A DNA stretch of 24,145 nucleotides from a virus. This document shows, piece by piece, positions 4,337 to 23,872 of this stretch (within the stretch, counting starts at the first letter, position 1; each line of letters opens with the position of its first letter). The notes under the pieces were generated by a model. The model was not told where the DNA came from. It saw only the letters and a list, made by a program, of their open reading frames with translations, and searched no databases. Both the position numbers and the translations under genes were made by a program. The DNA lies in IMG/VR virus record IMGVR_UViG_3300022752_000388, positions 1-24,145 of that record; one strand, written 5' to 3'.

Positions 4337-4843
4337 TTATGGTTTATCAGGCCACTGAATACCCCAAGGGAACCCCGCTTGAGTGGGTACGTCACGCAGT
4401 GCTTGACGGTATGCAGCCCATGCAGTTTTATCTACGGGAGCGTCAGCCACCTGTGTCCAATCAGAATCTTTAAGTAACTGTGTACGCTGGCTGCGGACAG
4501 ATTCGGCTTGGGTTGCGTCTTTCTGAGCTTTATATGCAGCTTCTTGCTCGGCAGCGGTTTGTGCTGGTTCCGTTTCTGTTGCTGGACGGTCTGTAAAGAT
4601 CGGGCCAAGAACATACTTAGTAAACCAACGCCCTGAAGCATCTTGCTCTACGCCTTGACGCATGGAGAATTGATAATGGTTTTCTGGTGTGGCTTGTGGG
4701 CCTTCAAACACTACGTCAGCACCCAGTGCTTCAAGCACATCGTCAGTTGTGCGATCCCATGATGGACCGTTGTTGTCTTTAGCCCAGCGCCGGAGTTCAT
4801 CTTCCAGCATCACTTGGCCTGTTGATCTAATTCTGATTTCCAT
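4337..4843 (-). CDS. tail fibre assembly chaperone (Phage_tail_APC-like C-terminus)
   Basis: This 168-aa protein ends with a segment near residues 125-165 that reads LKDSDWTQVADAPVDKTAWA, then YRQALRDVPTQAGFPWGIQW. This 'sDWTQ...YRqaLRDiP...FPw..W' pattern is the signature of the phage tail assembly chaperone family (known family, from memory), which helps fold or trimerise fibres without remaining in the virion. The N-terminus (about 1-70) is a small alpha/beta region seen in similar proteins (FEGPQATPENHYQFSMRQG). The middle (about 85-120) is Ala/Gln/Glu-rich and probably helical. It sits just downstream of the fibre genes, separated from the 643-aa adhesin by the homing-endonuclease-like gene. 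ATG start, with AAGG about 6 nt upstream. Confidence 0.85.
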   Translation of the reverse strand: MEIRIRSTGQVMLEDELRRWAKDNNGPSWDRTTDDVLEALGADVVFEGPQATPENHYQFSMRQGVEQDASGRWFTKYVLGPIFTDRPATETEPAQTAAEQEAAYKAQKDATQAESVRSQRTQLLKDSDWTQVADAPVDKTAWAAYRQALRDVPTQAGFPWGIQWPDKP

Positions 4844-4852
4844 GTTGTACCT

Positions 4853-5380
4853 TTATGTAAGGTAGTCAAAGCCTAATTTCTGATTCCTACAACGCCAGTT
4901 TACTGTTGCCTCCGGCATACGAAATGCTTTGGCACATTCAACAGCAGACCCCCAAACACCGTGAGGTGTACCAACCATCCGTGCAGAATAGTGCTTTGCA
5001 CCACTAATTGCCGCGCTTAGTTTTGCTTTTACTTCAGGTCTGTGCATAGCGTTGTTTTTTCCCACATTCCAAGGGTGAGGCATACCACGCAAAGATTCAG
5101 ATTTTTTGCGCTTGGTTTCTTCGCTGTCAGATTTGCCTAAATTACCATCACGAACATTGTGCTTGCCAAGACCAATAAATACGTTACCTACTTGATAACA
5201 GCCAGCATCACCGACACGGCACATACAATATTTTTCTGCGCCTCGGCCTCTTTGTTCCCACTTGCCCGAATCAAGCCAAATTTGTTTCCACTCATCAAAC
5301 GTCAACACAAACTCAACCCCACGCTGTTTAGCGTTTGATTTTTGTTGCGTGTACGCTTTGAGATATGGGTCTTTGGTCAT
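4853..5380 (-). CDS. putative free-standing homing endonuclease with NUMOD-type DNA-binding modules
   Basis: This 175-aa basic protein has three parts. Residues about 10-80 hold a compact, possibly HNH-like core: NAKQRGVEFVLTFDEWKQIW, the pair YCMCRVGDAGCYQVGNVFIG and then HN at 74-75. Residues about 84-128 resemble NUMOD3 repeats (SEETKRKKSESLRGMPHPW, then RPEVKAKLSAAISGA). Residues about 137-174 resemble a NUMOD1/IENR1 helix-turn-helix (GSAVECAKAFRMPEATVNWR). Such combinations are typical of homing endonucleases, which spread by cutting unoccupied alleles. It lies between a fibre gene and its chaperone with gaps of 1 and 9 nt, so it is transcribed with the late operon. No intron or intein is visible. 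The DNA-binding modules are clearer than the nuclease core, whose family I cannot fix. Confidence 0.7.
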   Translation of the reverse strand: MTKDPYLKAYTQQKSNAKQRGVEFVLTFDEWKQIWLDSGKWEQRGRGAEKYCMCRVGDAGCYQVGNVFIGLGKHNVRDGNLGKSDSEETKRKKSESLRGMPHPWNVGKNNAMHRPEVKAKLSAAISGAKHYSARMVGTPHGVWGSAVECAKAFRMPEATVNWRCRNQKLGFDYLT

Positions 5381-5381
5381 A

Positions 5382-7313: not shown

Positions 7314-8626
7314 TATGCAAACCTCGTTTGTGATGCAAACACTGTGAACGCCGCAGACCCCGTCTTCACTATCGTATACACATAAGCATCAATGGAGCTT
7401 GCATTACCTGCTGACCATGCAGTGCCGCCTTGGTATTTAGGGGTTACCGACGAACCGTCTACTTGCACTGCGCTGTTGTAATAAGCCGTGGCACCTTGAG
7501 TTACAAGGAACGCAACCGTAACTGATTCACCCGTAGCCATCAAAGTATTTAAGGATGTGCCGGAAGACCCACGAAAGTTAACTGTCCAGTTGGCTGATGC
7601 GTTGCTGGTGTAGTAGAGAACCGACTGCGTGGTTACATCGTAGTTGATTGTTCCTGTGGCAGCGGTAGCCGAAACCGTTGCTACTTCCTTCGCGTTAGTT
7701 AGCGCTACTGCTGCTACACTGCTTGAACCACTAAACGTTTGAAGCGCAGTAAATGTCGTAGCTGTTCCCGGAGCCACGTAGTCTGTACCAGCGGTAGCAT
7801 TTGCTAAAGCGCCCCCAGAATTTGCTTTTAAGATAGACGTTCCTGATGGTGGCGCAAGGTAATCTGTTCCTGCCGAAGCCGCAGAAATTGCCGTGCCGTT
7901 GCCTTTTAATACACCTGAAATCGTTGTAGATAACGTCAATGCAGGCGTCGCCCCACCAGAACTTGATCCAGCAAAACCATTAGAGGTCGCTACGGATACC
8001 GCCGTAACGGTTCCCGTTGATGCCGCAACCCACGTTGGTGCACTAGAGCCATTTGACTGAAGAACATACCCTGCGGTGCCTGCCGCTGTAAAAGCGTAAG
8101 CTGAACCGGTACCATAAGCAACAGCCCCAGCAGTAGGTGTAGCTGTAGCGTTTGTGCCGCCACGAGCAACAGGTACTGTTGGGCCAATTGTTCCTACAAG
8201 TTTATAATCCGTACCGTCATAAGCAACAAGTGCTGTTTGTCCGGGTTGAAGCGTTACGCCAGTTTGTCCTGTGGCTTTAAAAGTAAGTGTGTATGTTGAG
8301 TCATCGTTAATAAGACGATAAGAACGACCTAAACTTGCGCCTGTGTTTCCTACTGTAATTGTTGAGTTTTGAGCCAAAGAAGAAACACGGAAGGTTGCAT
8401 ATTGAGCCGATGAAGCAACAATATTTGTTCCTGAATTTGTTCCTTCTGTCGTTTCAATCGTCAACGCACCAGTGGAAAAGTTTGCGCTTGTTAACGAAGA
8501 AATCCCACCAATTGCAATATCTAAATATTGTGTTAAACCGTTATTTGTATAATCCCCCCATACCCCAGATTCCGTACCTGTGGTTATAACGGGAAGATCT
8601 AAAAGAGTTGTGCGGTTAACAGTCAT
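7313..8626 (-). CDS. tail fibre protein
   Basis: This 437-aa, Ser/Thr/Ala/Gly-rich beta protein begins with TLLDLPVITTGTESGVWGDY and TNNGLTQYLDIAIGG, an N-terminus I know from many phage fibre proteins that attach to the tail. A middle beta region contains GRSYRLINDDSTYTLTFKAT and VARGGTNATATPTAGAVAYG. Fibre-shaft repeats follow, such as GVLKGNGTAISAASAGTDYL and ILKANSGGALANATAGTDYV, each ending in 'GTDYxAP'. The C-terminal ~130 residues (from about SVAAVALTNAKEV) form a separate beta domain, likely a trimeric tip, ending TVFASQTRFA. The start is ATG with GAGGTG about 6 nt upstream, after a 38-nt gap that is the widest within the fibre block. Confidence 0.85.
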   Translation of the reverse strand: MTVNRTTLLDLPVITTGTESGVWGDYTNNGLTQYLDIAIGGISSLTSANFSTGALTIETTEGTNSGTNIVASSAQYATFRVSSLAQNSTITVGNTGASLGRSYRLINDDSTYTLTFKATGQTGVTLQPGQTALVAYDGTDYKLVGTIGPTVPVARGGTNATATPTAGAVAYGTGSAYAFTAAGTAGYVLQSNGSSAPTWVAASTGTVTAVSVATSNGFAGSSSGGATPALTLSTTISGVLKGNGTAISAASAGTDYLAPPSGTSILKANSGGALANATAGTDYVAPGTATTFTALQTFSGSSSVAAVALTNAKEVATVSATAATGTINYDVTTQSVLYYTSNASANWTVNFRGSSGTSLNTLMATGESVTVAFLVTQGATAYYNSAVQVDGSSVTPKYQGGTAWSAGNASSIDAYVYTIVKTGSAAFTVFASQTRFA

Positions 8627-8664
8627 AATTCACCTCAAGTCAAAATCAATGACCAACTGGGAGT

Positions 8665-9597
8665 TTACGTCGTATTAATAATGCCCCATCCCGGCGTTTG
8701 GTTACTGTTGATATTTTGCCAGTTTGCTGTCTCTGAGTCATCAATAAGCTCCCAGAGTTTCCTTCCATTTATAACATCTGTTGCCGTGGCTGATTCGGTA
8801 ACACTTGCTTCAAAATTAAACCCTGCGCTATCAACATCTGTACCTGTAGCCGACTCTGTGATCGTCGCCAAAAACTTAACCAGCGCACTGTCAAGATCTG
8901 TTCCTGTTGCTGATTCTGTGATAACGGCGTTGTAGGCGTTTTGCGATCCAACATCATCCGTACCGGTGGCTGACTCATCAATTGCTGAGGAGTAGGCGTT
9001 CTGTGACATAACATCATCAGTGCCTGTGCCTGTCTCTGCAACCACTGAATCAAACGTAACCAGAGAGCTAACTGCATCTGAACCTGTCCCGCTTTCTGAT
9101 ACATCACAAGGGTATTGAGGGGTTGCACTGATACTATCTGAACCTGACCCCGTTTCTGTGACCAAGGTAAGGAATTTAATAAAGGCTTCTGTACTGTCTG
9201 TCCCTGTGGATGTTTCTGAAACACTCGCTTCAATTTGTACAGGTGATGAGGGGTCATCTGTTCCTGTCGCAGTTTCTGCAACCGTTGCGCCAAACTGTAA
9301 ACCACCTGATGTTGTATCTGTTCCTGTAGCTGTTTCTGCAACTGCCGAATCAAATTGAACAAGGGAAGATATATCATCGGCACCAGACGCTGGTTCAGAA
9401 ACCAATACTGCAAATTCAATAAGCGAAGACGTTGCATCGGCGCCTGTGGCAGTTTCATCGACTGCCACTTCATAAGTCGCACCTCCGCCCCACGCGCCTG
9501 ACCCCCATGTGCTATACCCCCAACCTTCGGTAATAGGCGGACTACCCCCTCCCGTTGATCCAAGTGGTGCGCCGCCAAATGGTGATATGCCAAACAC
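8665..9597 (-). CDS. fibre-like protein with twelve 20-residue repeats
   Basis: This 310-aa acidic protein has three parts. The N-terminus (residues 1-45) is Gly/Pro/Trp-rich and contains EGWGYSTWGSGAWGGG. Residues 46-285 are twelve consecutive repeats of exactly 20 residues with the pattern 'V-x-E-[ST]-x-[TS]-G-[TAS]-D', then a variable part ending in a hydrophobic/Phe position. A 25-residue C-terminal tail ends PGWGIINTT. Such regular beta repeats suggest a fibrous shaft or solenoid in the virion. The start is GTG: an ATG two bases upstream lies in a different frame. The GTG is placed 4 nt after the upstream TAG, with AGGA just before it. Cys is almost absent (one in repeat six). The function as an adhesin or tail fibre is inferred from neighbours. 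Confidence 0.8.
   Translation of the reverse strand: MFGISPFGGAPLGSTGGGSPPITEGWGYSTWGSGAWGGGATYEVAVDETATGADATSSLIEFAVLVSEPASGADDISSLVQFDSAVAETATGTDTTSGGLQFGATVAETATGTDDPSSPVQIEASVSETSTGTDSTEAFIKFLTLVTETGSGSDSISATPQYPCDVSESGTGSDAVSSLVTFDSVVAETGTGTDDVMSQNAYSSAIDESATGTDDVGSQNAYNAVITESATGTDLDSALVKFLATITESATGTDVDSAGFNFEASVTESATATDVINGRKLWELIDDSETANWQNINSNQTPGWGIINTT
8743..9462 (-). repeat. coding tandem repeat, 12 x 60 bp (20 aa)
   Basis: The translated repeats line up with no insertion or deletion for all twelve copies, giving a strict 60-bp period. Individual copies diverge at the variable positions, while the 'E[ST]xTG[TA]D' core is kept. The last copy runs into a distinct C-terminal segment. 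The strict register suggests selection on repeat length, as in a beta-solenoid or beta-helix shaft. Confidence 0.9.
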
Positions 9598-9601
9598 ATT
9601 C

Positions 9602-9967
9602 CTATCCAGTCACCCAGCTAGTTGTTGCCTCATCCCAGCTATACATCTGTCCGTCTTGCGGCATCGGTATGGGTGCTTCCCATAAGCATCTATCTTCGTT
9701 CAGTACCCACGATGGATAGGGTTGCGGTGGGATAAATGCGTCTCGCTGTGTATCGTAGGTATAGCCAATGCCTGCGTAGTTCTTCCTGAATGGTGTGCCG
9801 CCGCCTGTGTGTACGCCGCCTTGCGTGTTGTAGCTTGTACGTTTGCACTTGAGCCTTGTTTCAGCAGCGTAAAACTCTTCCCAATCGTAAATGCCTTCGT
9901 TCTCGTCCTTACCGACGATGACTTGGACGACTGTGTTGTTTTTGTCGAGTAGTGCGTAGTGAGCCAT
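9602..9967 (-). CDS. small tail-region protein of aquatic phages, function unknown
   Basis: This 121-aa protein starts MAHYALLDKNNTVVQVIVGK and contains RTSYNTQGGVHTGGGTPFRK, then NYAGIGYTYDTQRDAFIPPQ and PYPSWVLNEDRCLWEAPIPM. I recognise this set of motifs from small proteins common in cyanophages and other marine or freshwater phages, usually found among tail-fibre genes and of unknown function. It is Tyr/Trp-rich and compact, with no membrane segment. Its position between two fibre genes suggests a fibre accessory protein, assembly factor or minor virion component. ATG start, 9 nt after the stop of the glycine-rich fibre gene. Gene call is firm; role is open. Confidence 0.82.
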   Translation of the reverse strand: MAHYALLDKNNTVVQVIVGKDENEGIYDWEEFYAAETRLKCKRTSYNTQGGVHTGGGTPFRKNYAGIGYTYDTQRDAFIPPQPYPSWVLNEDRCLWEAPIPMPQDGQMYSWDEATTSWVTG

Positions 9968-9976
9968 CTGCTTTCC

Positions 9977-11530
9977 TTACCAACTGATTGTGCCGGTGCC
10001 AGCGGTGAAGCGATAGACACGATAGCCTGAGCGTGTAGGTTGGTCGTAAGTTAGACCTGCGCCGATGGATGCGAGTGCGGGATATGTGTCTGGGTAGGCG
10101 ATGATGACTACGCCGGAGCCACCTGACCCGCCTGCTGCGCCTATATTGTCTCTTCCCGAACCACCGCCACCACCTCCGGTGTTTGCCGTTCCAGCAGATC
10201 CGCTTCCAGTATTGCTACCATTTCCACCACCTCCGGCTCCACCAGTTCCTTGCGCACCTCCTCCAGCATACGTAGCGCCGCCCCCGCCGCCAGCATAAGT
10301 TACCGATGCGCCGGTGATTGACGATGCCGTGCCGATGCCCCCATTGCCTCCAGATCCAGATGTGCCATTATTCCCAACCGCACTTGCTCCACCACCACCG
10401 CCAGATCCATAGTTTGCAGAAGTAAACCCTGTGCCGCCGTTATTTCCTTGAGATGGTGACGTTGATGGTGTATTCCCCAATCCACCGCCATTTCCCGTGC
10501 CACCACCACCCCCACCACCACCTCCACCAGACCCACCGCTAGCTCCTGAAATATTCATATCTCTTCCTGGTGAGCCGCCACCACCACCAGCAGACGTTAT
10601 GGTGCTAAAAACAGAATTTGATCCATTGACGCCAATGGTTGGCGTTGTCGTTCCACCAGCTCCTCCTGCTCCAATTGTGACTGTAATCGGCGAACCTGCA
10701 TTTATAGAAAAGCCAGTGTTGGTTATAAATCCACCGGCCCCGCCTCCTCCTGATATTCCTTTTGCAACTCCGCATCCACCGCCCCCTCCACCTCCAGCAA
10801 CAACTAAATAATCAACAGGAATTACCAGTGGGAGTGACGTAACAGAATAAGAATAAGCCTTCCACCCCTGTGTTGAATCAACATAAACCAATTGCACAGA
10901 GGATTGATTGGTTGCAAAAATTGCCGATAAAGTCGCGCCGTTTATCTTTTTTCCATTTGGCGATACCGTCATATTATTCGTCGCAAACGTCCCTGCATAA
11001 TCCGTTAGCGTTATCAAATCCCCCGCACTCGGGCTTGCAGGCAGCGTCACCGTAATCGCTGCTGACGTTGTGTTAACCGGATAAGCGTTGCCAGCAGAAG
11101 CCGTGAAGTTGCCTGTCTGAACGGATTGCCACGTTAGACCGCCGCCGCCACCACTGCTTGCGGCAATCGTAATAGTTCCATTTCCTGGAGTCAGTGTGAT
11201 ATTTGACCCAGCCGTTAATCCATAAGCAGCACGTCCTGCGGGATAAGTCACAAAGACGTTTTTAGTACCAGCGGAGAAATTAACAAGGCTTCCTGAATTA
11301 CTGGAAGATAAGACCGTGTCCCTTGATAAAGTAGTGCCAGACGATGTGTACGTACCTATGCCTACTTCCCAGTTGGACCCAGACTGGTCGGCTATGGTGT
11401 AAAAGGTCGTGTTGCCGTTACCTATAGCAGCAAACGATTGAAACCCCGTAACCGCACCAGCTAATGTTACTGTGCCGGTGCCTGTGGTTGTCGTGGTTTC
11501 CTGTACACGATCAGCAAGAAGAAAAGCCAT
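9977..11530 (-). CDS. glycine-rich tail fibre protein
   Basis: This 517-aa protein has an N-terminal domain (about residues 1-105) with AFLLADRVQETTTTTGTGTV, FYTIADQSGSNWEVGIGTYT and SRDTVLSSSNSG, seen at the start of many phage fibre proteins (from memory). A beta linker with SAAITVTLPASPSAGDLITL follows. The glycine-rich region from about residue 240 begins VDYLVVAGGGGGGG, contains long runs of Gly with Ser, Asn and Thr up to about residue 475, and ends with YRVYRFTAGTGTISW. This 'YLVVAGGGGG ... YRFTxGxGT' frame matches the glycine-rich fibre domain known from phages and pyocins, thought to form polyglycine-helix sandwiches for receptor binding, as in the S16 adhesin. It is probably an adhesin. 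Its ATG overlaps the upstream stop by 1 nt. Confidence 0.83.
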   Translation of the reverse strand: MAFLLADRVQETTTTTGTGTVTLAGAVTGFQSFAAIGNGNTTFYTIADQSGSNWEVGIGTYTSSGTTLSRDTVLSSSNSGSLVNFSAGTKNVFVTYPAGRAAYGLTAGSNITLTPGNGTITIAASSGGGGGLTWQSVQTGNFTASAGNAYPVNTTSAAITVTLPASPSAGDLITLTDYAGTFATNNMTVSPNGKKINGATLSAIFATNQSSVQLVYVDSTQGWKAYSYSVTSLPLVIPVDYLVVAGGGGGGGCGVAKGISGGGGAGGFITNTGFSINAGSPITVTIGAGGAGGTTTPTIGVNGSNSVFSTITSAGGGGGSPGRDMNISGASGGSGGGGGGGGGGTGNGGGLGNTPSTSPSQGNNGGTGFTSANYGSGGGGGASAVGNNGTSGSGGNGGIGTASSITGASVTYAGGGGGATYAGGGAQGTGGAGGGGNGSNTGSGSAGTANTGGGGGGSGRDNIGAAGGSGGSGVVIIAYPDTYPALASIGAGLTYDQPTRSGYRVYRFTAGTGTISW

Positions 11531-13652: not shown

Positions 13653-14081
13653 CTAAGAGGCTGAGACACTATTTAACAAAGCTTGACCTATGAGATGATT
13701 GGGTGTCATGCCCGAATCTATAGATCTTGCACCGCCCACCGGATTAAATCCCCATTCAATCGTGCGGCTTCCTTCTAACGGAACTCCGGTGTAAAGAGGA
13801 TTTGTGCTAACAACATTATCCACGGTTTGAATACCGTTGTAACCTGATTGATAGTATGAATTAGAATCGGGCCTGGGGTTTCTCACGGCCTGAGGATCAT
13901 CAACAGGATACATTCCTAATTGCAACTGAGGTTGATCGGGTTCCCAGCATTCTGGGCATACAAGAATATTAACATTCTTGGTCTTTATTGTGAGCACCTT
14001 GAGTTGCTTAAGCTTATAGCGAAAATTACATCGATCGCATTGGGCGATTGCAAACTTTCCAGATGCAAATCTATTAGGCAT
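13653..14081 (-). CDS. zinc-ribbon-like neck-region protein
   Basis: This 142-aa protein contains two Cys pairs, C15-x2-C18 (AQCDRCNFRYK) and C42-x2-C45 (VCPECW), spaced like the knuckles of a zinc ribbon. A basic, hydrophobic strand region lies between them. A Pro-rich part follows (EPDQPQLQLGMYPVDDPQAV, RNPRPDSN) and a C-terminal tail with SRTIEWGFNPVGG. Many phage relatives I remember keep the FRY...EPxxPQL...DPQAxRNPRP frame, often without all the Cys. Zinc binding here is inferred from the Cys spacing. It lies between the two adaptor candidates, with 1-nt overlap to the upstream gene, suggesting a role in the neck or tail. ATG start. Confidence 0.8.
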   Translation of the reverse strand: MPNRFASGKFAIAQCDRCNFRYKLKQLKVLTIKTKNVNILVCPECWEPDQPQLQLGMYPVDDPQAVRNPRPDSNSYYQSGYNGIQTVDNVVSTNPLYTGVPLEGSRTIEWGFNPVGGARSIDSGMTPNHLIGQALLNSVSAS

Positions 14082-15055
14082 TAGTAGCCACCAAATCCTA
14101 GAAAGCCTTGGCGCGGGACCAATCTAAGGGGCGCCTTCTCTCGATCTTCTTCAGAGGCTAATTGCCATGCTTCGTCGTATTGAGCTTTTAACATGGCCAT
14201 TCTCTCGAGCCCTCCTTCTACTTTCATGGATAGCTTATAAGCCAGTCCTGAAATTAAAGCCTCTTGGAATCGGAATGGGATGTCTTCTACGTTAACACCA
14301 TTCCCTGCGTCCTGGATTCTGCGAAGTCTCCAATAAACCAGTGTGTAGTACGGTGTTGTGATTGATCCCTGATCAGGGGCCGGCCATACCGTTACATTGG
14401 GAAACTGCGTATTGCTTACCGTGGCTCCCGAACTATGAGAGGCTGCTGTTGTGTTGTTTTGGCCTCTCAATACATTATTCAGCGTAGCAAATGCCGAAAC
14501 GCCTGTAGCCACGTTTTGTGCTTGGGTGCTAGTACCGTAGTAATAAATTGTTTCCGATCCAATGTTTGCATATCCTGCATATGGCACCCCCGAGAGAGAA
14601 GACATTGGTATTGTCGTAACCGACGAGGTGAGATTCGTAGCCAAGGTTCCCGTGAATACATAAGTTTGTCCACCTAGTCTGTCGATGTAAATTTGAATGG
14701 GGCGCCCGGTTGCGAGTTTGTTTGGGATTGTCGAATAGGTGCTTACCGAAATCCTACTAATATTGATGTCTGTTTGATTTGATCCAACCCCCGTGCGAAT
14801 GGTTGTTTCAACAAGATCGACTGTATTGATTGGAAGCGGGTAGGTTATTTGATTGGCATAGAGCTGAATAGCCCCTTGCTCCATGGTCCAAAGGTTGATC
14901 CCCCTATTTGCCCATTCAGATAGAAGAAGATTCAATGAACGTCTTGCGGTGCGTAAGTCATAGCCCGAACGAAGTTCTCTTCCGCATCGCTCAAATGCTT
15001 CTTCTACAATCTCATTTAAATTGGGATTGAATGCCGTCAGTCCGGTTGTTGTCAT
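14081..15055 (-). CDS. head-tail adaptor / tail accessory protein (P22 gp4-like candidate)
   Basis: This 324-aa protein has an N-terminal helical block: NLNEIVEEAFERCGRELRSG, YDLRTARRSLNLLLSEWANR and GINLWTMEQGAIQL. The 'xxxLxxLLxEWxxxGIxLW' pattern matches the family of tail accessory factor P22 gp4 and related adaptors (inferred from motif). A beta insertion follows at about residues 130-220 (Thr/Ser-rich; YVFTGTLATNLTSSVTTIPM). It then returns to a helical end: YYTLVYWRLRRIQDAGNGVN, EALISGLAYKLSMKVEGGLE and MLKAQYDEAWQLASEEDREK, closing with a RLVPRQGF motif. It would extend the portal ring toward the tail. It overlaps the upstream small gene by 4 nt (ATGA) and the zinc-ribbon gene by 1 nt. 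Confidence 0.75.
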   Translation of the reverse strand: MTTTGLTAFNPNLNEIVEEAFERCGRELRSGYDLRTARRSLNLLLSEWANRGINLWTMEQGAIQLYANQITYPLPINTVDLVETTIRTGVGSNQTDINISRISVSTYSTIPNKLATGRPIQIYIDRLGGQTYVFTGTLATNLTSSVTTIPMSSLSGVPYAGYANIGSETIYYYGTSTQAQNVATGVSAFATLNNVLRGQNNTTAASHSSGATVSNTQFPNVTVWPAPDQGSITTPYYTLVYWRLRRIQDAGNGVNVEDIPFRFQEALISGLAYKLSMKVEGGLERMAMLKAQYDEAWQLASEEDREKAPLRLVPRQGFLGFGGY

Positions 15056-15563: not shown

Positions 15564-15767
15564 TTAAAGTTTTTCACCTATCTCATATTGAGATAGCTTT
15601 GATCTGAGCTTTTCAATTTCTGCGTCGCGTTCTGCTAACTTCTTTTGAAAGCTTTCATTCATATCAACCCACATCTGCAAATTCTGGGTTCTTAACCTAT
15701 TGTCCTCGACCATCATATTAAATAGTCTTTCGGATGCGTCAAGTTGCTTTTGAATAAAATTAATCAC
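15564..15767 (-). CDS. small coiled-coil protein
   Basis: This protein of 67 aa (from the GTG chosen here) is almost wholly helical: INFIQKQLDASERLFNMMVE, then SFQKKLAERDAEIEKLRSKL in a heptad pattern, ending SQYEIGEKL. A long coiled coil is likely, perhaps oligomeric. I chose GTG at 15767 because GGAGG sits 8 nt before it and it overlaps the upstream TAA by 8 nt. An in-frame ATG at 15806 would give 80 aa but overlaps the previous gene by 47 nt and has no clear ribosome site. It sits inside the cassette of small genes before the connector. No function recognised; a scaffold or assembly helper is possible. Confidence 0.72.
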   Translation of the reverse strand: MINFIQKQLDASERLFNMMVEDNRLRTQNLQMWVDMNESFQKKLAERDAEIEKLRSKLSQYEIGEKL

Positions 15768-16029
15768 GATATCCACCTCCTGCTGCTTTGTACTTTTTCG
15801 CCACAAGCTGAGCCTTTCTCGCGGACCATTTTCCTGCTCCCGTGCCTTGCGTGGCCGCAGCTTTTACTTGAGCAACGATACGCTTGCGAAGATCTGGCTT
15901 CGTATAGTTACCAGCCGCATTGACCGTCCCGCCTTTAGCGTACTCTTTAAAGTCTGTGTTATCCCTTCGTGCCTTGATTTTGGGCACTTTGCTGGGATTG
16001 ATTATTCCCATTCCCCGACTGATTAACAT
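15760..16029 (-). CDS. small basic protein with KWSARKAQL...YKxxGGGY motif
   Basis: This 89-aa basic protein ends with AAGNYTKPDLRKRIVAQVKA, GTGAGKWSARKAQLVAKKYK and AAGGGYRD. This 'YTxPxLRxRI...xWSARKAQLxAxxYKxxGGGY' domain recurs in phages and giant DNA viruses (from memory, perhaps DUF5872); its function is unknown. The N-terminus is MLISRGMGIINPSKVPKIKA. The ATG at 16029 is supported by AGGAG 6 nt upstream even though it lies 71 bp inside the end of the giant gene, an unusually long overlap here. An internal ATG at 16011 would still overlap by 53 bp. Charge and conserved aromatic residues suggest DNA contact (inference). Confidence 0.8.
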   Translation of the reverse strand: MLISRGMGIINPSKVPKIKARRDNTDFKEYAKGGTVNAAGNYTKPDLRKRIVAQVKAAATQGTGAGKWSARKAQLVAKKYKAAGGGYRD

Positions 16030-19000
16030 CTGCTGCTCCTATTAGTGCTGCCAGACCAAAGTTTTCCGTATCCTTAAGTGGCCGTAAATAGTTTGGTGCT
16101 TTGAACAAATCAAAAGGTCCAAATTGTGGTGCTGGCACGTTGGGCTGTGCGTAGTCTACATAAGTTTTCTGTTGCTCTGATGCTGGAATTCCAAATAGCG
16201 GAAACGGCGGGGCGGTTGTTACCGGCTTTGATGTCGTTGGCGCCTTGGTTGTTGTTGTAGTTATCGGAATTGTTGTTGTAATTTCGGTTGGTGATAACGT
16301 CAATGTTATTGGCGGAGTTGTTGTTTGTGTGGTGATAGGAAACGATGTGGTAGTAGTAACCGGTGGTAAGGATGTAGTAGTAACCGGTGGTAAGGATGTA
16401 GTAGTAACCGGTGGTAAGGATGTAGTAGTAACCGGTGGAAGAGACGTTGTGGTGATTACCATGGTTAATGATGGTGACTTTGTTATTAGTTGCGTCAGTG
16501 ACGGTGTGATTGATTGAGTAACGGATTGAGTGACTGATTGTGTTACCGACTGCGTGACTGATTGTGTTACAGATTGTGTGACTGATTGTGTTACCGACTG
16601 CGTGACTGATTGTGTTACAGATTGTGTGACTGACTGGGTTACCGACTGCGTGACTGACTGGGTTACCGACTGCGTGACTGATTGTGTTACAGATTGTGTG
16701 ATTGACTGGGTTACCGATGGTGTGACTGACTGAGTAACGGATTGAGTAACTGACTGGGTAACGGATTGAGTAACTGACTGAGTAACGGATTGAGTAACGG
16801 ATTGTGTAACTGACTGGGTAACGGATTGAGTAACTGACTGGGTAACTGACGGGGTTACCGATGGTGTAACTGACTGGGTAACTGACGGAGTAACGGATTG
16901 AGTAACTGACTGGGTTACCGATGGTGTTACGGATTGAGTAACAGATTGTGTTACAGATTGTGTGACTGACGGAGTAACAGATTGAGTCAAGGATTGTGTG
17001 ACTGGTTGCGTAACTGAAGGCGTAACAGATAGACTTGCCGCACGGCTAATTGATTCCGAAATGAGTGCTGAAATAGACTGAGATAGTGAAATCGATTGGC
17101 TTAAGGATGCCGATAGGGACATTCCTTTGATCACATTTTCGCTTATCTCTTGGCTCAAGCTTTGCGATAACGATGCTGACTGACTCTGAGATAGGGACTG
17201 TGAGGCGCTTAAAGCCAATTCTTGGCTAATTGATTGTGATAAAGATATTGCCGCTGCTTCAGATATTGATATTGATTGTGACTGTGACACGCTTTGTTGC
17301 TTCGATACGCTTTGTGAAAGTGAATTTGAAACACTAACTGATTCAGAGATTCTTATTGTCTCAGATATTGATTGCGATACAGATTCCGATATGGATTGGC
17401 CCCTTGCGCGATCTGCTTTAATTTCCGAGCTTATGCTTATGGATAAAGATTGCGATTGCGAGAGCGACTGTGATGAGCTTAGTGAAATCGATTCAGATAG
17501 CGCGACTGCAGTCGAAAGACTTTGACTGTTGGATATTGATGCGCTTATTGCTGCTTCAGATATAGACTGACTTAAACTAATACTTATTGAATTTGATGTG
17601 CTTGCAGCTATGAGATCCGACATTTTTGTCGTCACCTCAACCGTGGGCGTTGCATCTGGCTTGACGGTTGATACACCAAGCTTTACCTCATCGCCTTTTT
17701 GCAGCAAATAATTATTGGGTCCTACACGCAGCATGGTGTACATCTTTCCATCTGCGCCCGTAACGATGGCGTTATCACCGACAATCGATGTGACTGTGCC
17801 AGATACCGTGGACCTTGGAGTAATCGTATCTAATACATTGAGTTGCCGATCTCCCGCAAGGCCCATGGTGTTCATGAACGTCTTGAAGTCAGCGTAGGTT
17901 ATTTTGCCTTGGTCTAGTAGTGACCGTGCATTGGCAGCAATCTGTGCGTCTGTCTGTGCATTAAACGCCCGCTGATCGTCTAATAACTTACCTTGTGGCG
18001 TGTTATTTAGTTCGTTAACAATTGAATCTAAATTAACCCCATCAGCGAGACGTTTTAAATTAAATTCAAGTTCATTAAATGTTGGGCGCCTGCCAATTTC
18101 ATTTTGAAAAACTTGATTTAATTGTTGTTCGAATATAGAAAATTTTTCATTAACATTATCAGGTACATACACAACATCATTTTTTGTGGCGTTTATATTA
18201 ATTTCATCGCCAACCTTTAAGTCCACATTGCTTGGCAAATCAAAACGCACCAAGGACCCATTTCCTAGTTCTACAAGCCCCTGGGTTCCGTCTGGCGAGA
18301 TTATTTTTATTTGTCCGCTGTTATCGGAAGTCATTCCTCCACGAAGACCAACCGCAACTCCTGCGGTTGTACCAGCCGCAACAAATGTTTGTTGCATCGT
18401 ATCCAGGGCGCCCTTCAAGAAATCCATGCCCGTCATGTCTTGGGCCAAACCAATCTGAGGAAGCTTATCTGTTGCCGCTTGCAAACTATATGAAAGCAGT
18501 TCACCTAGTTGTTCTTTGGTGCCGTACTTGCCAATTTGCGTAATTAAGCTTTCGCCAATTACCTTGCCTAGCTGATCCGTTGCGGTGCCGCGCCACAGGG
18601 GTTTCAACAATCCAACTAGCTCATCTGCGCCGATTCTCTCGCCAATTCCTTCTGCTATTGCCATGAGGGTCGCCCGCTTTCCTGCGTCCTCTATTCCAAG
18701 TCCGGACATTCTTCCTTGGATGTATTCATTTCCGTATGTTGTTGCCATGGCTCCAACTACAATACCCGGAGCGATTCCAGTCGCCAACCACGGTATGGCA
18801 GTTACGACATTTGACAGGCCTCCAATAAGATTTTTATGCGCGTCCGTACTTGCATTTGCAATCGTAACCGCGTCGTCACCCGCTGTTTTTATTCCCGCTG
18901 CTAGCTTGCTGAAATCCTTGGCAAAGGAATCAAGTCCGAGGGATTCTGCAATATGTAGGTTAATTCCAAGTGCGCCGTTAAGTGAATTTGCTACTGCGCT

Positions 19001-22000
19001 TCCTGTTACTGCATACGCCGTGGCTAATGTATTTGAAAGCGCATCGCCAGCAGGAGATCCACGAAACTGGTTTATAAATTGCTTTGTTTCAAACGGGAAC
19101 TGTGAATCCTGTACAGAAGATAAGTTGATTCTGTTGAACACATTTCCAGATTGTAAATCTTGGAGCGCAAGCGCCATGGCGGTGCTTGGTTGAACACCTT
19201 GATCGATGTAATAGGCGGAGGCCTTATTTTCAACACGAGTATCGGCGCGAAGCAAAAAGTCCGCCATTGACTTTTGATTACCTGCTATAGCCTGCTGCCT
19301 TTGTTGGTCAATTTGTTTGTATTGCGAATCAATGTCTTTCAAGATTCGCATATCGGTTGTGGCGGCACTAGCAGATGCGATTTTCGCCCTTTCCTCAGGG
19401 CTCATAATGCTGTACTGTCTTAACAAATTATCAAAATAACTTTTTTGTACCGTCGCAAAATTGTTTTGTATTAATCCCGTCTGCGTTGTAAGACCTAGGG
19501 ATCTTGCTTGATCGCTTAGCTCTTTAGGTATTGAGAATTCTGAATTTGTTACTTTAGGTGCGGTTCTTTGAATAATTTGTTGTGCATCAATTACGGTTTT
19601 TACACCTTGTGGTGATAATCCGTAAAAATCTTTTGTGATATCTTTACCCGTGGCGTCTTTTGCGCTTGATACAAAAAGATCGCCGGTTTCTGCATTCCTA
19701 TCAAATACAACCTGTCTTCCGTTTCCAATGTTGAACCATTGTTTTAAATTAGAAACTGCTGCGTTTGTAAGTTCTGAAGGCGTTAATTCTGATCCTTCTT
19801 TCAGAGCCCTGTAATACAAAAGTTGCTGATTGGCTTTGTCACCTTTGATACCCACATCATCCATGGCGGATTCGAGTTGGGACTCGGTAGCCTTGCCGTT
19901 AATAAAATCATTTGCAATATTTGTGTAGTTTTTTCTTGCTGTGATTTGACTATTTAATGATGTTATATAGTCGGATGCATCTTCCGGTAAGAATCCCGCA
20001 TCTTTCAGTCTTTGAATTGCGTCTTCTGATTTTAGTGTTGAATCAAATGACGTATATTCTTTTGCTATATCTTGAGCCTTTTTTGCCCTATCAATGAATT
20101 GTTGATTGGCTGCGAAGATACTTGCAATTGTATTATCTGAATACCCTGATTCGCGTAAATCATCTGCTGCGTCATCGACTGAAGTCTCGCCGCTGTTTAT
20201 GGACTTTATTAAATTATTCACATAGCTTGATTGGCCAGCATTTAGTGCGCTTTGTATGCCTTGCCATTCTTCTGCCGAATACACTCGTCCAGCAGAATTG
20301 CCGCTTAACATCAGTCGATTGCCATCGTCATCCATGGTAAACAGTTCACCATTCTTATCGATGGCTACTGCACCTATGGCTGAGTTAGATTTTGCTACTT
20401 CTGGAGTTGCGCCACCCGTTACCTTGGCTGCTTGATCTTTGCTAAATCCAAGGTTAATCAACTGATTCATTAGGCTAATAGGATTGAATTTTCCTGTTTT
20501 AGCTGTGTTGATTGCTTGTGATACGCCGATTTGAAGTAGCGCTTTGGATGTTGGGTCAAGCTTTTGTGCAGTTGCAAATTCATTAATGCCCGTGGAAATT
20601 GCGGCGTTTACAGCCCCACCTAATAAAGCTGGTAATGGGTCTTGTCCTTGTGATATTGAATAGATTGCATTCGCCATGGGCCCGGCGATTAATTTGGCAG
20701 TTGCAAGTTTTTCTGCTGCCGTGGCTCCGCTAATCAGTCCGCTGTTTGCTAGCTCATTGGCCATCACACTCGTGACGCCCTGAAGTATCTCCCCAGTTGC
20801 TGCGCCTAAAAATGCTTTGGATAAATCGCCGCCGTTGAAGACGGTATTTATCGCTACTCTTGTGAGAAAACTTGATACGGCAGGGGCGGCGGTCGCACCA
20901 ACAATACTACTGATAGCTGGAGTTATTGCGTTGGCTATACCCGGAACAAGAAACGATGCCCCCACTGCAAGCAACTGAACCAGCATCGGGTTTTTCTGTA
21001 GAAAATCCGACGCATTCCATTCTGGAACAATAACCGGCGATCCAAAGGCGTCGAGCTGTACTCGATAATCTGAATAACCCTTTCCTGCGTTGGTTGAACC
21101 AATGACATTGCTTCCCTTGCCGCCCACCATTTTGGTATCAAGTGGTTGGTTTGTTCGCTTGTCAAATAATTCATAGGTTGTGTAATCGTTATATCCGATT
21201 ACCTCTGGTGTATCACTAGATGCTGAAAATATGGGATCTTTGCCGGCGCCAGTTTTTACGCCAATTTGATTTAAATTAGTGATCCCTAAAGCGGCAAGTC
21301 TTTTTGCCAGATCATCTACATGCCACTCGTCGGAATTACCAGGGGTCTGATAATTGAGTTTATATAAAGATTTGCCACTATTGATCTGGCCTTTTAGGAA
21401 GTCAATTGTGTCATTGTTGAGCCATTTGCCCTCCCATTTCGTATCTTTGGGGTGGAGTATTAACTGCTCATAATCGTTACGACTTAACTTCTGGCCCGTT
21501 TGATAGTTTTGAAACGGGGTTTCTAAAAACTCTGGTTCAAAAACCCAGCCGTTTTTAAGGTCTAGACCGAGAGCCTGTTCGTATACGTTATACCCATTGT
21601 TATACATCCAATCAATATCGACTTGACTTACGCCATCGGCTATTAATTGCGATGGTTTTATTTTTTTTTCGTTGAAATAATCTATCTTTTGTTTTGGATC
21701 ATAATTACCCCATTCGCTTGGCAAGCTAATTGATGGTTTTGGAGGAGCGCTTGTTGTTTTTGTTGCGTCATAATAGCCGTAGAGATCTTTAAGACTTTGA
21801 ATTTCTGGTTCTGGCGTCCCAAATGCTCTTAATTGACCTTCTGTGACCTTGGATCCAATGAGCCAATTTACTTTTTCTTGGGGGCCGATTTGAAACCAAT
21901 TAGATGGCAAATTTACGCCAACGCTCGCGGCCTTGGCTCTTGTTTCATCTTGTTCTGATCTTTGCGTAGGTTTTGGAGGAGCGCTTGTTGTTTTTGTTGC

Positions 22001-22495
22001 GTCATAATAGCCGTAGAGATCTTTAAGACTTTGAATTTCTGGTTCTGGCGTCCCAAATGCTCTTAATTGACCTTCTGTGACCTTGGATCCAATGAGCCAA
22101 TTTACTTTTTCTTGGGGGCCGATTTGAAACCAATTAGATGGCAAATTTACGCCAACGCTCGCGGCCTTGGCTCTTGTTTCATCTTGTTCTGATCTTTGCG
22201 TAGGTAAACTATTTTGATAGGCATCTCTTTGCCCTGCGTCTAAAAATGCAGTGCCGTCTGATGCGTAATAATAAGTTGGATAGTTATAAGTCCCTTCTTC
22301 TTCCTGCTCTCGCCTATCATAAGATCTTGTATATGCTGGCGGCGGACTATATCCATTATTTAACATCCATTGAATTGTTTCCTCGTCCGTGATTGAACGA
22401 AGCTCATTGATGGATGTCCCTGCGGCGTTAAAACGCCGTATTTTTTCTGCGGCGTCTAGGCCAAACCATTCCGAGTCAAATGTTGGAAGCGCCAC
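15959..22495 (-). CDS. giant repeat-bearing virion protein (2178 aa), function unknown
   Basis: By far the largest gene here. Start is GTG with AGGT 5 nt upstream; an in-frame TGA lies just before, so no longer start exists. Layout: residues 1-305 hold four ~47-residue modules ('LPxxW...K[IV]..[FL]...LxxxG...WM.NNGY' type), the middle two identical. Residues ~500-560 and ~1220-1285 are Ala/Gly-rich and hydrophobic, the second with YIQGRMSGLG and GIGERIGADELV. Residues ~680-1190 are mostly helical; ~1455-1500 resembles a DUF4214-type module (uncertain). Residues 1626-1823 are Ser/Gln repeats, 1824-2007 VTxS tetrapeptides, 2018-2049 TTTSLPPV. The last ~130 residues are Pro/Thr- then Asn/Gln-rich. 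Size and hydrophobic helices resemble large ejected internal proteins; the stalk resembles surface adhesins. No catalytic motif was seen. It could be an internal/ejection protein or a long fibre. Confidence 0.8.
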   Translation of the reverse strand: MALPTFDSEWFGLDAAEKIRRFNAAGTSINELRSITDEETIQWMLNNGYSPPPAYTRSYDRREQEEEGTYNYPTYYYASDGTAFLDAGQRDAYQNSLPTQRSEQDETRAKAASVGVNLPSNWFQIGPQEKVNWLIGSKVTEGQLRAFGTPEPEIQSLKDLYGYYDATKTTSAPPKPTQRSEQDETRAKAASVGVNLPSNWFQIGPQEKVNWLIGSKVTEGQLRAFGTPEPEIQSLKDLYGYYDATKTTSAPPKPSISLPSEWGNYDPKQKIDYFNEKKIKPSQLIADGVSQVDIDWMYNNGYNVYEQALGLDLKNGWVFEPEFLETPFQNYQTGQKLSRNDYEQLILHPKDTKWEGKWLNNDTIDFLKGQINSGKSLYKLNYQTPGNSDEWHVDDLAKRLAALGITNLNQIGVKTGAGKDPIFSASSDTPEVIGYNDYTTYELFDKRTNQPLDTKMVGGKGSNVIGSTNAGKGYSDYRVQLDAFGSPVIVPEWNASDFLQKNPMLVQLLAVGASFLVPGIANAITPAISSIVGATAAPAVSSFLTRVAINTVFNGGDLSKAFLGAATGEILQGVTSVMANELANSGLISGATAAEKLATAKLIAGPMANAIYSISQGQDPLPALLGGAVNAAISTGINEFATAQKLDPTSKALLQIGVSQAINTAKTGKFNPISLMNQLINLGFSKDQAAKVTGGATPEVAKSNSAIGAVAIDKNGELFTMDDDGNRLMLSGNSAGRVYSAEEWQGIQSALNAGQSSYVNNLIKSINSGETSVDDAADDLRESGYSDNTIASIFAANQQFIDRAKKAQDIAKEYTSFDSTLKSEDAIQRLKDAGFLPEDASDYITSLNSQITARKNYTNIANDFINGKATESQLESAMDDVGIKGDKANQQLLYYRALKEGSELTPSELTNAAVSNLKQWFNIGNGRQVVFDRNAETGDLFVSSAKDATGKDITKDFYGLSPQGVKTVIDAQQIIQRTAPKVTNSEFSIPKELSDQARSLGLTTQTGLIQNNFATVQKSYFDNLLRQYSIMSPEERAKIASASAATTDMRILKDIDSQYKQIDQQRQQAIAGNQKSMADFLLRADTRVENKASAYYIDQGVQPSTAMALALQDLQSGNVFNRINLSSVQDSQFPFETKQFINQFRGSPAGDALSNTLATAYAVTGSAVANSLNGALGINLHIAESLGLDSFAKDFSKLAAGIKTAGDDAVTIANASTDAHKNLIGGLSNVVTAIPWLATGIAPGIVVGAMATTYGNEYIQGRMSGLGIEDAGKRATLMAIAEGIGERIGADELVGLLKPLWRGTATDQLGKVIGESLITQIGKYGTKEQLGELLSYSLQAATDKLPQIGLAQDMTGMDFLKGALDTMQQTFVAAGTTAGVAVGLRGGMTSDNSGQIKIISPDGTQGLVELGNGSLVRFDLPSNVDLKVGDEININATKNDVVYVPDNVNEKFSIFEQQLNQVFQNEIGRRPTFNELEFNLKRLADGVNLDSIVNELNNTPQGKLLDDQRAFNAQTDAQIAANARSLLDQGKITYADFKTFMNTMGLAGDRQLNVLDTITPRSTVSGTVTSIVGDNAIVTGADGKMYTMLRVGPNNYLLQKGDEVKLGVSTVKPDATPTVEVTTKMSDLIAASTSNSISISLSQSISEAAISASISNSQSLSTAVALSESISLSSSQSLSQSQSLSISISSEIKADRARGQSISESVSQSISETIRISESVSVSNSLSQSVSKQQSVSQSQSISISEAAAISLSQSISQELALSASQSLSQSQSASLSQSLSQEISENVIKGMSLSASLSQSISLSQSISALISESISRAASLSVTPSVTQPVTQSLTQSVTPSVTQSVTQSVTQSVTPSVTQSVTQSVTPSVTQSVTPSVTPSVTQSVTQSVTQSVTQSVTQSVTQSVTQSVTQSVTQSVTQSVTPSVTQSITQSVTQSVTQSVTQSVTQSVTQSVTQSVTQSVTQSVTQSVTQSVTQSVTQSVTQSVTQSVTQSITPSLTQLITKSPSLTMVITTTSLPPVTTTSLPPVTTTSLPPVTTTSLPPVTTTTSFPITTQTTTPPITLTLSPTEITTTIPITTTTTKAPTTSKPVTTAPPFPLFGIPASEQQKTYVDYAQPNVPAPQFGPFDLFKAPNYLRPLKDTENFGLAALIGAADVNQSGNGNNQSQQSAQNQGTKG
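16350..16445 (-). repeat. 4 x 24-bp tandem repeat encoding TTTSLPPV
   Basis: Four direct 24-bp units lie at 16350-16373, 16374-16397, 16398-16421 and 16422-16445. The first three are identical; the fourth changes only in its last bases. On the coding strand each encodes an octapeptide of Thr, Ser, Leu, Pro and Val. This is a Pro/Thr linker within the giant protein and a likely site of copy-number slippage. Confidence 0.92.
16475..17026 (-). repeat. 46-unit array of a 12-bp repeat encoding VTQS / VTPS
   Basis: A continuous array of 46 four-residue units, in register for 552 bp with no break. Units are mostly VTQS, with VTPS scattered and a few ITQS, LTQS, ITPS and edge variants. At DNA level there are higher-order copies: a 48-bp block beginning at 16541 recurs at 16589, and part of the other half repeats with a 24-bp period (around 16735-16800). 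This indicates growth by block duplication. The reverse strand is also open here (VTDC-type repeats), which is only a by-product of the 12-bp period. Confidence 0.93.
17027..17622 (-). repeat. degenerate Ser/Gln-rich repeat region (SxS, SQS)
   Basis: About 198 residues (1626-1823) of the giant protein consist largely of alternating Ser with Ile, Leu, Val, Ala or Gln, such as SISISLSQSISEA and SLSQSQSLSISIS. The unit is short and degenerate, without a fixed DNA period. A few charged breaks occur (EIKADRARG, NVIKGM). The pattern is like serine-rich stalks of surface proteins and predicts a long beta-type or extended rod. Confidence 0.85.
21735..22205 (-). repeat. perfect 234-bp tandem duplication
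   Basis: The stretch 21735-21968 is followed directly by an identical copy at 21969-22202. Identity runs three bases further, so 237 bp of overlapping sequence match with no mismatch by eye. The period is 78 codons, keeping the reading frame (residues ~99-176 and 177-254 of the giant protein). No other sequence lies between the copies. Zero divergence, including third positions, means a very recent duplication or ongoing homogenisation. Confidence 0.96.
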
Positions 22496-22502
22496 ATATC
22501 AC

Positions 22503-22874
22503 CTAGCAATACATGCCGCCTTTGTTCATTTTGACCATCTTGCCCTTGGTCTTGCCCTTTGATGCTACGCCATCACGACTTGGGGCGGCTGTTTTTACAG
22601 AGCCCATTTTTGTCATGCCGCCCATTTTCATGCCCTTCATCTCTGCCATTTCATGTTTGACCATAGACTTAGGTGCGCCTTTAGCCTTCATAAAAGCCAC
22701 TTCTTTTTTCACCATGGCTTTGGGCTCTCCGCCCATTTTCATACCTTTCATAGCTCTTTCCTCTGATAGTCCAATTGCAATTGCTTGCTTGGGGTTAGTG
22801 ACTTTTTGACCTGATGATGACTTGAGTTTACCCGATTTAAATTCTCGCATAACCGTTGCTATCTTATCTTTCAT
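22503..22874 (-). CDS. DUF6496-like Met/Lys-rich small protein
   Basis: This 123-aa protein begins KIATVMREFKSGKLKSSSGQ, then KVTNPKQAIAIGLSEERAM, which fits the DUF6496 pattern (VMxEFKxGxLxSxSGxKVTNxKQAIAIALSE; from memory, function unknown). A Met/Lys-rich middle has two similar 'PK[AS]MVKxE[VM]xxMK' units at about residues 51-65 and 67-80. The C-terminus reads APSRDGVASKGKTKGKMVKM and ends GGMYC. Its ATG overlaps the previous stop by 4 nt (ATGA) and its TAG overlaps the ribosome site of the giant gene, 7 nt downstream. It is very basic and without membrane segments. A role in DNA condensation or head assembly is conceivable but unsupported. Confidence 0.8.
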   Translation of the reverse strand: MKDKIATVMREFKSGKLKSSSGQKVTNPKQAIAIGLSEERAMKGMKMGGEPKAMVKKEVAFMKAKGAPKSMVKHEMAEMKGMKMGGMTKMGSVKTAAPSRDGVASKGKTKGKMVKMNKGGMYC

Positions 22875-23872
22875 ATGTATTTACCTCTGGTTTTTCCTCT
22901 CATGGCTATTCCATCTGCGCGACTTGATGCGGAACCTACTTTGCCGCCCTTACGCATATAGTCAGATCCCATGCGAATATCTTCATAATCCACGGGTTCA
23001 CTTTTTGTTGATCTTTGATACGGTCTTGGTTGAACTTTAATTGCTTCTTTCCCAGAGCTTTCGCCTTGCAATAACCGGCGTTTATTTTTTGCCGCAGCAA
23101 ACTCTACGGGCCCCATGTCCTTTTCATAAGGAAGTCTTTTGCGTGGGGCCTCAAGTTGTTTAGCTGGCTCGCCTCGCTTTGCGAGCTCTCCGCCTTTTGG
23201 CGCCTCAAGTCTTGGGGCGCCCTTTGTTTCAAGCTTTGCAAGATCTTTAGCTGCTGCTTTTGTGGTCAGGGCTTTCGCGGCCTCTTGTGGGACCCTTGGC
23301 TCGACTCTTGCCGCCCTTTGTCCCATTTTTGCTGCTGCGCCCAATCCCCTAAGTGGAAGCCCAAACATGAGCATTTCAGGTGCTACACGCTCAAGGGGTT
23401 TGTCGTAGTCCCTGATTCTTTCAAACTCTGATTTACCCTTGGTTTTTCTTCCCGCCTCGATGGCGTCCATTTCTTTTTTGGCTACTTCTGCGGGCTTTTC
23501 TGTTTTGGTAACTGGCTTAGACGCTGGTTTAACGACTGGCTTTGTGGCGGGCTTGGGTGCTTGTTTTTTGGGCGCCTGTTTAATTGGCGTGTGTGAAAAT
23601 CCTGCTGTGCCGGGTTCTTCAAATTCCTCTACGCTAATTGACGGTCGCGTCATCTCTGGCTCTCTTACGGGCATAGCCTGAGCCACAGGGGGGCTTGGCT
23701 GGGCAACCTGGGGGACTTGTGCAGGAGCCTCCATCATTCGCGCAGCCGTACTACCCGACATAATGGGTTGCCCACTGCTGTCTCGGACGATCTCACCGCT
23801 TGAGTCCCTGAGAGGCTCCCTCTCAAAATCGGGCATACCACCTTCATAAAACTTTCGTGTTTTGCGTTTCAT
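22871..23872 (-). CDS. hypothetical Lys/Pro/Ala-rich protein with RADGIAMRGKTRGK tail
   Basis: This 333-aa, low-complexity, basic protein starts MKRKTRKFYEGGMPDFEREP. A Pro/Gln-rich part follows (about residues 48-72), then a Lys-Pro repeat at about 98-128 (KQAPKPATKPVVKPASKPVT). An Ala/Leu/Arg helix-prone segment comes next (MLMFGLPLRGLGAAAKMGQR). The tail contains YMRKGGKVGSASSRADGIAM and RGKTRGKYI. The 'S..RaDGIA.RGKTRG' ending recurs at the C-terminus of the next protein as SRDGVASKGKTKGK. No enzyme motif is visible. ATG start after the 58-bp gap. The extended nature suggests a scaffold or disordered virion protein (inference). I do not recognise a function. Confidence 0.78.
   Translation of the reverse strand: MKRKTRKFYEGGMPDFEREPLRDSSGEIVRDSSGQPIMSGSTAARMMEAPAQVPQVAQPSPPVAQAMPVREPEMTRPSISVEEFEEPGTAGFSHTPIKQAPKKQAPKPATKPVVKPASKPVTKTEKPAEVAKKEMDAIEAGRKTKGKSEFERIRDYDKPLERVAPEMLMFGLPLRGLGAAAKMGQRAARVEPRVPQEAAKALTTKAAAKDLAKLETKGAPRLEAPKGGELAKRGEPAKQLEAPRKRLPYEKDMGPVEFAAAKNKRRLLQGESSGKEAIKVQPRPYQRSTKSEPVDYEDIRMGSDYMRKGGKVGSASSRADGIAMRGKTRGKYI

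Follow-up and report, generated by a model that had tools for sequence, protein, structure and literature searches.

A mosaic giant protein encoded beside the tail adaptor gene of an uncultured podovirus, and its predicted role as an ejected internal virion protein

The window, by which we mean the whole stretch of viral DNA analysed here (24,145 nucleotides of IMG/VR record IMGVR_UViG_3300022752_000388), carries its main genes on one strand, and one of them encodes a giant protein of 2178 residues. The open reading frame occupies positions 15959-22495 of the minus strand, on which the protein parts and neighbouring genes located below also lie, and it starts with GTG and has no internal stop. 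The GTG start is supported by the homologs, which begin with MALPxLPSDW or VALVDELPPDW. In comparison with the homolog at locus L006, the dN/dS ratio is 0.09 over the core of the protein and 0.02 over its C-terminal tip. The core is thus under strong purifying selection, and the frame is confirmed as a real gene. Cysteine is absent from the window protein and from 13 homologs (14 sequences together).

The late genes are arranged in the following manner. The order begins with the genes for a 333-residue protein (22871-23872) and a 123-residue protein (22503-22874), followed by the giant gene, an 89-residue protein gene (phrog_17747; 15760-16029) over the 3′ end of the giant gene, and the tail adaptor of the SU10 type (SU10_adaptor; 14081-15055). 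The adaptor was assigned by Pfam PF24175 (27.7 bits, cut-off 27) and by tblastn to annotated adaptors, and the 333-, 123- and 89-residue proteins are conserved neighbours. After the adaptor come small tail proteins, fibre-type genes that are separate from the giant gene (4337-11530), holin-like and lysozyme genes, a 711-residue virion structural protein (phrog_3287; the “stabilization” protein of phage DSL-LC04 is a relative), and finally 211- and 202-residue proteins, the latter truncated by the window end. The 89-residue gene and the giant gene share 71 bp, read in different frames, and relatives keep this arrangement. The source virus is uncultured; by its capsid (58-74% identity) and its adaptor (39-45%) it is a podovirus akin to Pelagibacter phage HTVC023P, Roseobacter phage CRP-902, phage DSL-LC04 and Planktothrix phage Pag-Yong1 (~50-65 kb each). 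These four phages share the virion backbone of capsid and adaptor, but none of them has a giant gene between the two.

The 333-residue protein ends in SASSRADGIAMRGKTRGKYI, and the 123-residue protein has a related C-terminal tag. This Lys/Gly-rich tag (S-RADGIA-RGKTRG-x or DGVA-KGKTKG-x) is common to two or three otherwise unlike short proteins of the capsid-adaptor cassette, in the window (22871-23872 and 22503-22874) as well as in L037, L056, L006, L063 and L079, and is absent from the examined stretches of HTVC023P, CRP-902, Pag-Yong1, DSL-LC04 and L018. It is possibly a shared virion-targeting or docking signal. HNH/homing-endonuclease-like genes lie in the window at 4853-5380, in the capsid region of L006, L013, L014 and L016, and at several points of the late region, and they may drive cassette exchange in this virus group.

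The N-terminal head of the giant protein consists of four modules of about 47 residues, hereafter called W-modules, which the sequence-only reading had also counted. A profile HMM places them at residues 3-50 (22346-22489; 51 bits), 118-164 (22004-22144; 55 bits), 196-242 (21770-21910; 55 bits) and 258-304 (21584-21724; 75 bits). Modules 2 and 3 are identical because they lie in a perfect tandem duplication of a 234-bp unit (21735-22205; 2.0 copies, 100% identity). Loci L004 and L005, which are 98% identical to the window elsewhere, have a single copy of this unit. The count of four would therefore stem from a duplication that is either very recent or an artefact of assembly. That the four-module head is partly an artefact, with a duplication that the virus itself does not carry, is a question separate from function; the perfect identity of the two copies and the single copy in L004 and L005 speak for it, while a recent tandem duplication would look the same and only one of the four modules is affected. 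We lean somewhat against the artefact, although it is a serious candidate. W-modules also occur within the stalks of L056, L064, L066, L067 and L068. A match of the W-module profile to DotG/IcmE (E 1e-10) was rejected, as it is a sum over short repeats in which no single stretch passes.

The head is followed by a core of about 1300 residues. Block A (residues 309-692; 20420-21571), to which the ejection-cluster core of L018 and L025 is homologous, includes a hydrophobic stretch at residues ~502-549 (20849-20992). Next come an all-helical middle region (residues ~758-1118; 19142-20224) and block B (residues 1145-1388; 18332-19063), with its marginally hydrophobic stretch at residues ~1223-1255. 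The plain count of hydrophobic windows is not above that of shuffled sequences (8 versus 6.6), and hydropathy was therefore judged only by peak tests with 30- and 50-residue windows against 300 shuffles. The hydropathy peak of block A (50-residue window) is matched by 3 of the 300 shuffles. That of block B is matched by 5 on 30-residue windows and by 80 on 50-residue windows, and exceeds chance on the former only. The hydrophobic core of the sequence-only reading is thus clear in block A and marginal in block B. The hydrophobic Ala/Gly block A is found again in the corresponding position of eight relatives, some of which have unrelated block types.

We modelled the core with AlphaFold2 from 15 sequences. 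The resulting all-helical model is of low confidence (pLDDT 56, pTM 0.30), and the middle region is its best part, with pLDDT mostly 70-88. A Foldseek search of the PDB with this low-confidence model returned nothing at E <= 1e-3 (all E > 0.1), so that the match to gp16/gp14-type proteins envisaged at the outset did not appear. Matches to HsdR and Fas from another search were set aside (E > 0.03). In BFVD, the sole match at E <= 1e-3 is A0A6J5KM96 (E 5e-10, 24% identity, 432 columns), a protein that is annotated in an uncultured Caudovirales phage as having an AdoMet_MTases domain. The region preceding the stalk (residues 1389-1624; 17624-18331) is modelled with higher confidence (pLDDT 84.9) as a beta-barrel/helical/beta-barrel arrangement with OB-like barrels. 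Its PDB neighbours are the OB folds of IF1, aIF1A and S1 (Foldseek E 4e-3 to 2e-2; TM-score up to 0.72 by target length). Pointing the other way, the 47 residues at ~1394-1440 match, by profile, the repeats of biofilm-associated surface proteins (E 1e-10 summed over two repeats). Both matches are leads.

The three-part C-terminal stalk described earlier was recovered in full. Part 1 (residues ~1632-1822; 17030-17602) is an S-x alternation, in which 66 of the 76 serines fall on one parity. Part 2 (residues ~1823-2010; 16466-17029) contains 45 units of the type (V/I/L)T(Q/P)(S/P/L), 33 of them perfect VTQS, and part 3 (residues ~2011-2097; 16205-16465) is Thr/Pro-rich. The 33 perfect units are written in 12 different DNA sequences, so the VTQS peptide is probably maintained by selection rather than by fresh DNA slippage. 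Matches of the stalk to phrog_430 and Pfam DUF445 were set aside as low-complexity. The protein ends in a tip of 80 residues (~2098-2178; 15962-16204; ..YVDYAQPNVPAPQFGPFDLFKAPNYLRPL..FGLAAL..), which the sequence-only reading had overlooked. It is strictly conserved at residues ~2098-2160 and constant at the 38 loci found by IMG/VR profile scan.

How widespread is this protein? We scanned IMG/VR with profiles of the whole protein, of its parts (blocks A and B, tip and middle segment) and of an alternative block B, and found about 40 loci with the tip or the core; the middle segment added no further contig. Searches of PHROGs, Pfam, NCBIfam, 50,697 phage records and GTDB genomes turned up no relative, the phage records having been searched by tblastn with the window core, the L018 core, L067 and L073, and the GTDB genomes having been scanned with the core and with the tip. 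The window protein itself has no Pfam or NCBIfam domain above cut-off. Accordingly, the family is one without a named relative in the libraries searched, while its kind, the large, mosaic, virion-linked protein, is already known.

Comparison of the loci indicates that the family is a mosaic, in which the heads, both hydrophobic blocks and the stalks are swapped and the tip is constant. W-modules form the head in the window, L004, L016, G001 and G002, whereas L006 and L013 have DUF4214 with a TTPPP linker (the Pfam cut-off is just reached in L006 and missed in L013), L067 has a GDSL/SGNH hydrolase (Pfam 44.9 bits, cut-off 32.9), and L056, L073 and L079 have heads of none of these types. The statement that the protein lacks a catalytic motif therefore holds for the window copy but not for its relative L067. 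Block B is replaced by an unrelated helical block in G001, L056, L064 and L067. The window type of block A is paired with two unrelated block B types (in the window and in G001), and the second block B type is in turn paired with different block A types (G001, L056, L067). The stalks are of the SLSQS, VTQS or TVTQT type, except that L018 has an acidic (EETSE)n repeat and L073 lacks a Ser/Thr rod. The order of parts, first taken as a distinct fixed design, is thus not fixed, since the head, each of the hydrophobic blocks and the type of stalk are all exchanged among homologs.

This pattern bears on two familiar classes of long virion protein. In tail fibres and spikes, the N-terminal virion-binding domain is conserved and the C-terminal receptor-binding tip is variable. 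The giant protein has the reverse polarity, with a variable N-terminus and a constant C-terminus, and an ordinary fibre or spike was rejected. The length of a tape measure protein is tied to the tail length. A tape-measure-like scaffold rod for assembly would suit a long, repetitive and helical protein, but the relatives are short-tailed podoviruses, the HMM searches (PHROG, Pfam) show no similarity to tape measures, and the stalk length varies widely even among relatives whose cores are 79-80% identical. A tape measure was rejected on these grounds, and we regard an assembly rod as highly improbable. No characterised tape measure or fibre protein was matched over its full length.

The family is encoded at two places in the genome. 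The first, seen in 24 contigs of which some are near-identical, is within the virion-structure cluster immediately before the adaptor; here the giant gene is followed by the 89-residue-type gene and/or the adaptor gene, and the major capsid gene lies farther upstream wherever the contig extends there. In L018, on a contig of 27.9 kb, and in L025, the homologous core instead comes directly after a tail stabilisation-like protein and a ~214-residue protein, and is 71% and 53% identical to the window, respectively, over about residues 309-686. In L018, the core gene is succeeded by a gene whose product shares its C-terminal domain with the “tail tape measure protein” of DSL-LC04, and then by genes for large ejection-type proteins. 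We call this region the ejection cluster, a putative label taken from its gene order and from the names of the genes in cultured relatives. The ejection-cluster protein begins at the core, without a head; that of L018 has a different C-terminus without the tip, and that of L025 ends at the contig edge. G001 (46 kb) has its giant at the adaptor site and none within its own ejection cluster. The core inside the ejection cluster is the strongest argument for a conserved function that would be internal or related to ejection.

Considering these features, we slightly favour the interpretation that the giant resides inside the virion and is ejected together with the DNA, in the manner of T7 gp16 or the polyvalent proteins. 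The ejection interpretation is favoured by the place in the virion-structure cluster upstream of the adaptor in 24 contigs, by the homologous core in the tail/ejection clusters of L018 and L025, and by G001, which has the giant at the adaptor site and none within its own ejection cluster. It is also favoured by the all-helical core with block A recurring in eight relatives, by the absence of cysteine in the 14 homologs, by the OB-like barrels before the stalk, and by the annotated methyltransferase neighbour in BFVD, since a SAM-dependent head would be useful only within the cell. Finally, the layout resembles that of T7 gp16 in its variable, sometimes enzymatic N-terminus and two distant hydrophobic regions.

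T7 gp16 has an N-terminal transglycosylase and two hydrophobic regions (TMH I, 243-410; TMH II, 1119-1290), and is mosaic among its relatives (PMC8954989). The gp16 type, which also includes P22 gp16 and Sf6 relatives, resembles the giant in being a very large helical protein whose N-terminal domain is an enzyme in part of the relatives, in its two widely spaced hydrophobic regions (of which the second is marginal in the giant), in its mosaic evolution and in its location with virion genes (PMC8954989). The Ser/Thr stalk and the conserved tip are not described for gp16, however, and the giant is usually encoded beside the adaptor, away from the ejection cluster. Searches of the PDB by sequence and profile, and by Foldseek with the low-confidence core model, detected no similarity to the ejection proteins of T7, P22 or PhiM1. 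The polyvalent proteins of phages and conjugative elements are often longer than 2000 residues, are virion-linked, and have been proposed to be injected with the DNA; like the giant, they have swappable and sometimes enzymatic domains (PMC5512222). In contrast, the giant has a long low-complexity stalk, one enzymatic head was seen directly (L067), and neither an LPD or other defining polyvalent domain nor several enzymatic domains were found in the window protein with Pfam and NCBIfam. Membership in either group is neither demonstrated nor claimed. The suggested link to ejected internal virion proteins thus survives as the best reading, but with a core for which these PDB searches gave no gp16/gp14-type match.

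The modules, the mosaic exchange, the two gene positions and the purifying selection are observed, and from them we derive the following course, which is a prediction as to packing, ejection, entry into the membrane and what each part does. The giant protein of this HTVC023P/Pam1-like podovirus would be packed in the head and leave with the DNA. The invariant tip would dock it to a virion part beside the portal and the adaptor, and the Ser/Thr stalk would be a flexible tether able to thread the narrow tail channel. The conserved helical core, comprising blocks A and B, would then insert into or cross the envelope, while the OB-like barrels may contact nucleic acid or the portal. The N-terminal head would be an exchangeable cargo or processing domain, such as the W-modules here and the GDSL/SGNH hydrolase in L067. 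Against this course, no solved ejection protein is matched, and the hydropathy of block B is not clearly beyond composition. Moreover, the relatives already have a separate ejection cluster, so the giant would be an extra ejection component.

An external fibre, too, would be expected to have a Ser/Thr rod with an enzymatic or adhesin-like head, and the biofilm-repeat match points to adhesins. The giant might thus be a head or neck adhesin or whisker, with the tip anchored to the capsid or adaptor, the rod extending outward, and a swappable head that binds or trims sugars of the host surface. A constant tip with varying heads, rods that look like those of surface adhesins (S-x and VTQS), a hydrolase head suited to polysaccharide deacetylation, the biofilm-repeat match and the adjoining capsid and adaptor genes all agree with such an adhesin. 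However, an all-helical, partly hydrophobic and strongly conserved core between head and rod is un-fibre-like, headless cores lie inside the ejection clusters of L018 and L025, the virus has fibre-type genes of its own, and no signal peptide is apparent by eye. We consider an external adhesin the leading alternative, though a rather unlikely one. A serine-rich repeat adhesin of bacteria consists of a signal peptide, the serine-rich repeat region and a cell-wall anchor. Such adhesins and the biofilm-associated proteins resemble the giant in S-x alternation, Thr-rich rods and the local repeat match; the giant differs from them in having a helical core and a phage structural-gene context, and neither a signal peptide nor a cell-wall anchor is apparent by eye. 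A bacterial adhesin gene captured whole was considered and rejected.

Alternatively, the gene might encode a late protein outside the virion, such as a superinfection-exclusion or host-modifying factor that is targeted to the membrane or surface and encoded within the structural cluster. No characterised protein is among the relatives found, and proteins of the capsid-adaptor interval of HTVC023P have N-termini that look like signal peptides by eye. The window protein has no apparent signal peptide, though, and the family is strictly linked to virion genes in each of two different clusters, which makes a non-virion factor improbable.

An extension of the ejection interpretation, which we put forward tentatively, is that the family is a class of phage-delivered giants, in which a constant docking tip and a Ser/Thr tether would deliver, by way of the tail, a membrane-crossing core and an exchangeable N-terminal cargo into the envelope. 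The cargo would include adhesin-like modules, a hydrolase and possibly a methyltransferase. If so, uncultured podoviruses known only from metagenomes would have a natural delivery chain with swappable payloads. The family is under purifying selection, costs more than 6 kb and is present at about 40 IMG/VR loci, yet is unlisted in PHROGs, Pfam and NCBIfam. Its mosaicism, with constant core and tip, exchangeable heads and stalks and two positions, separates structural need from cargo, and what podoviruses inject beside DNA thereby becomes testable.

Two further observations concern the ejection clusters. The ejection-cluster block A of L018 (L018:2514-3629) is nearly identical to that of the window at about residues 420-500, while the remaining protein differs; this suggests recent recombination between the two phage lineages. 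In addition, a second family of giants (1982-2084 residues) closes the ejection cluster in the 46-kb contig G001 (L030, 10927-17181) and in contig G003 (L035/L036), and is conserved in its C-terminal ~900 residues only, with 28% identity.
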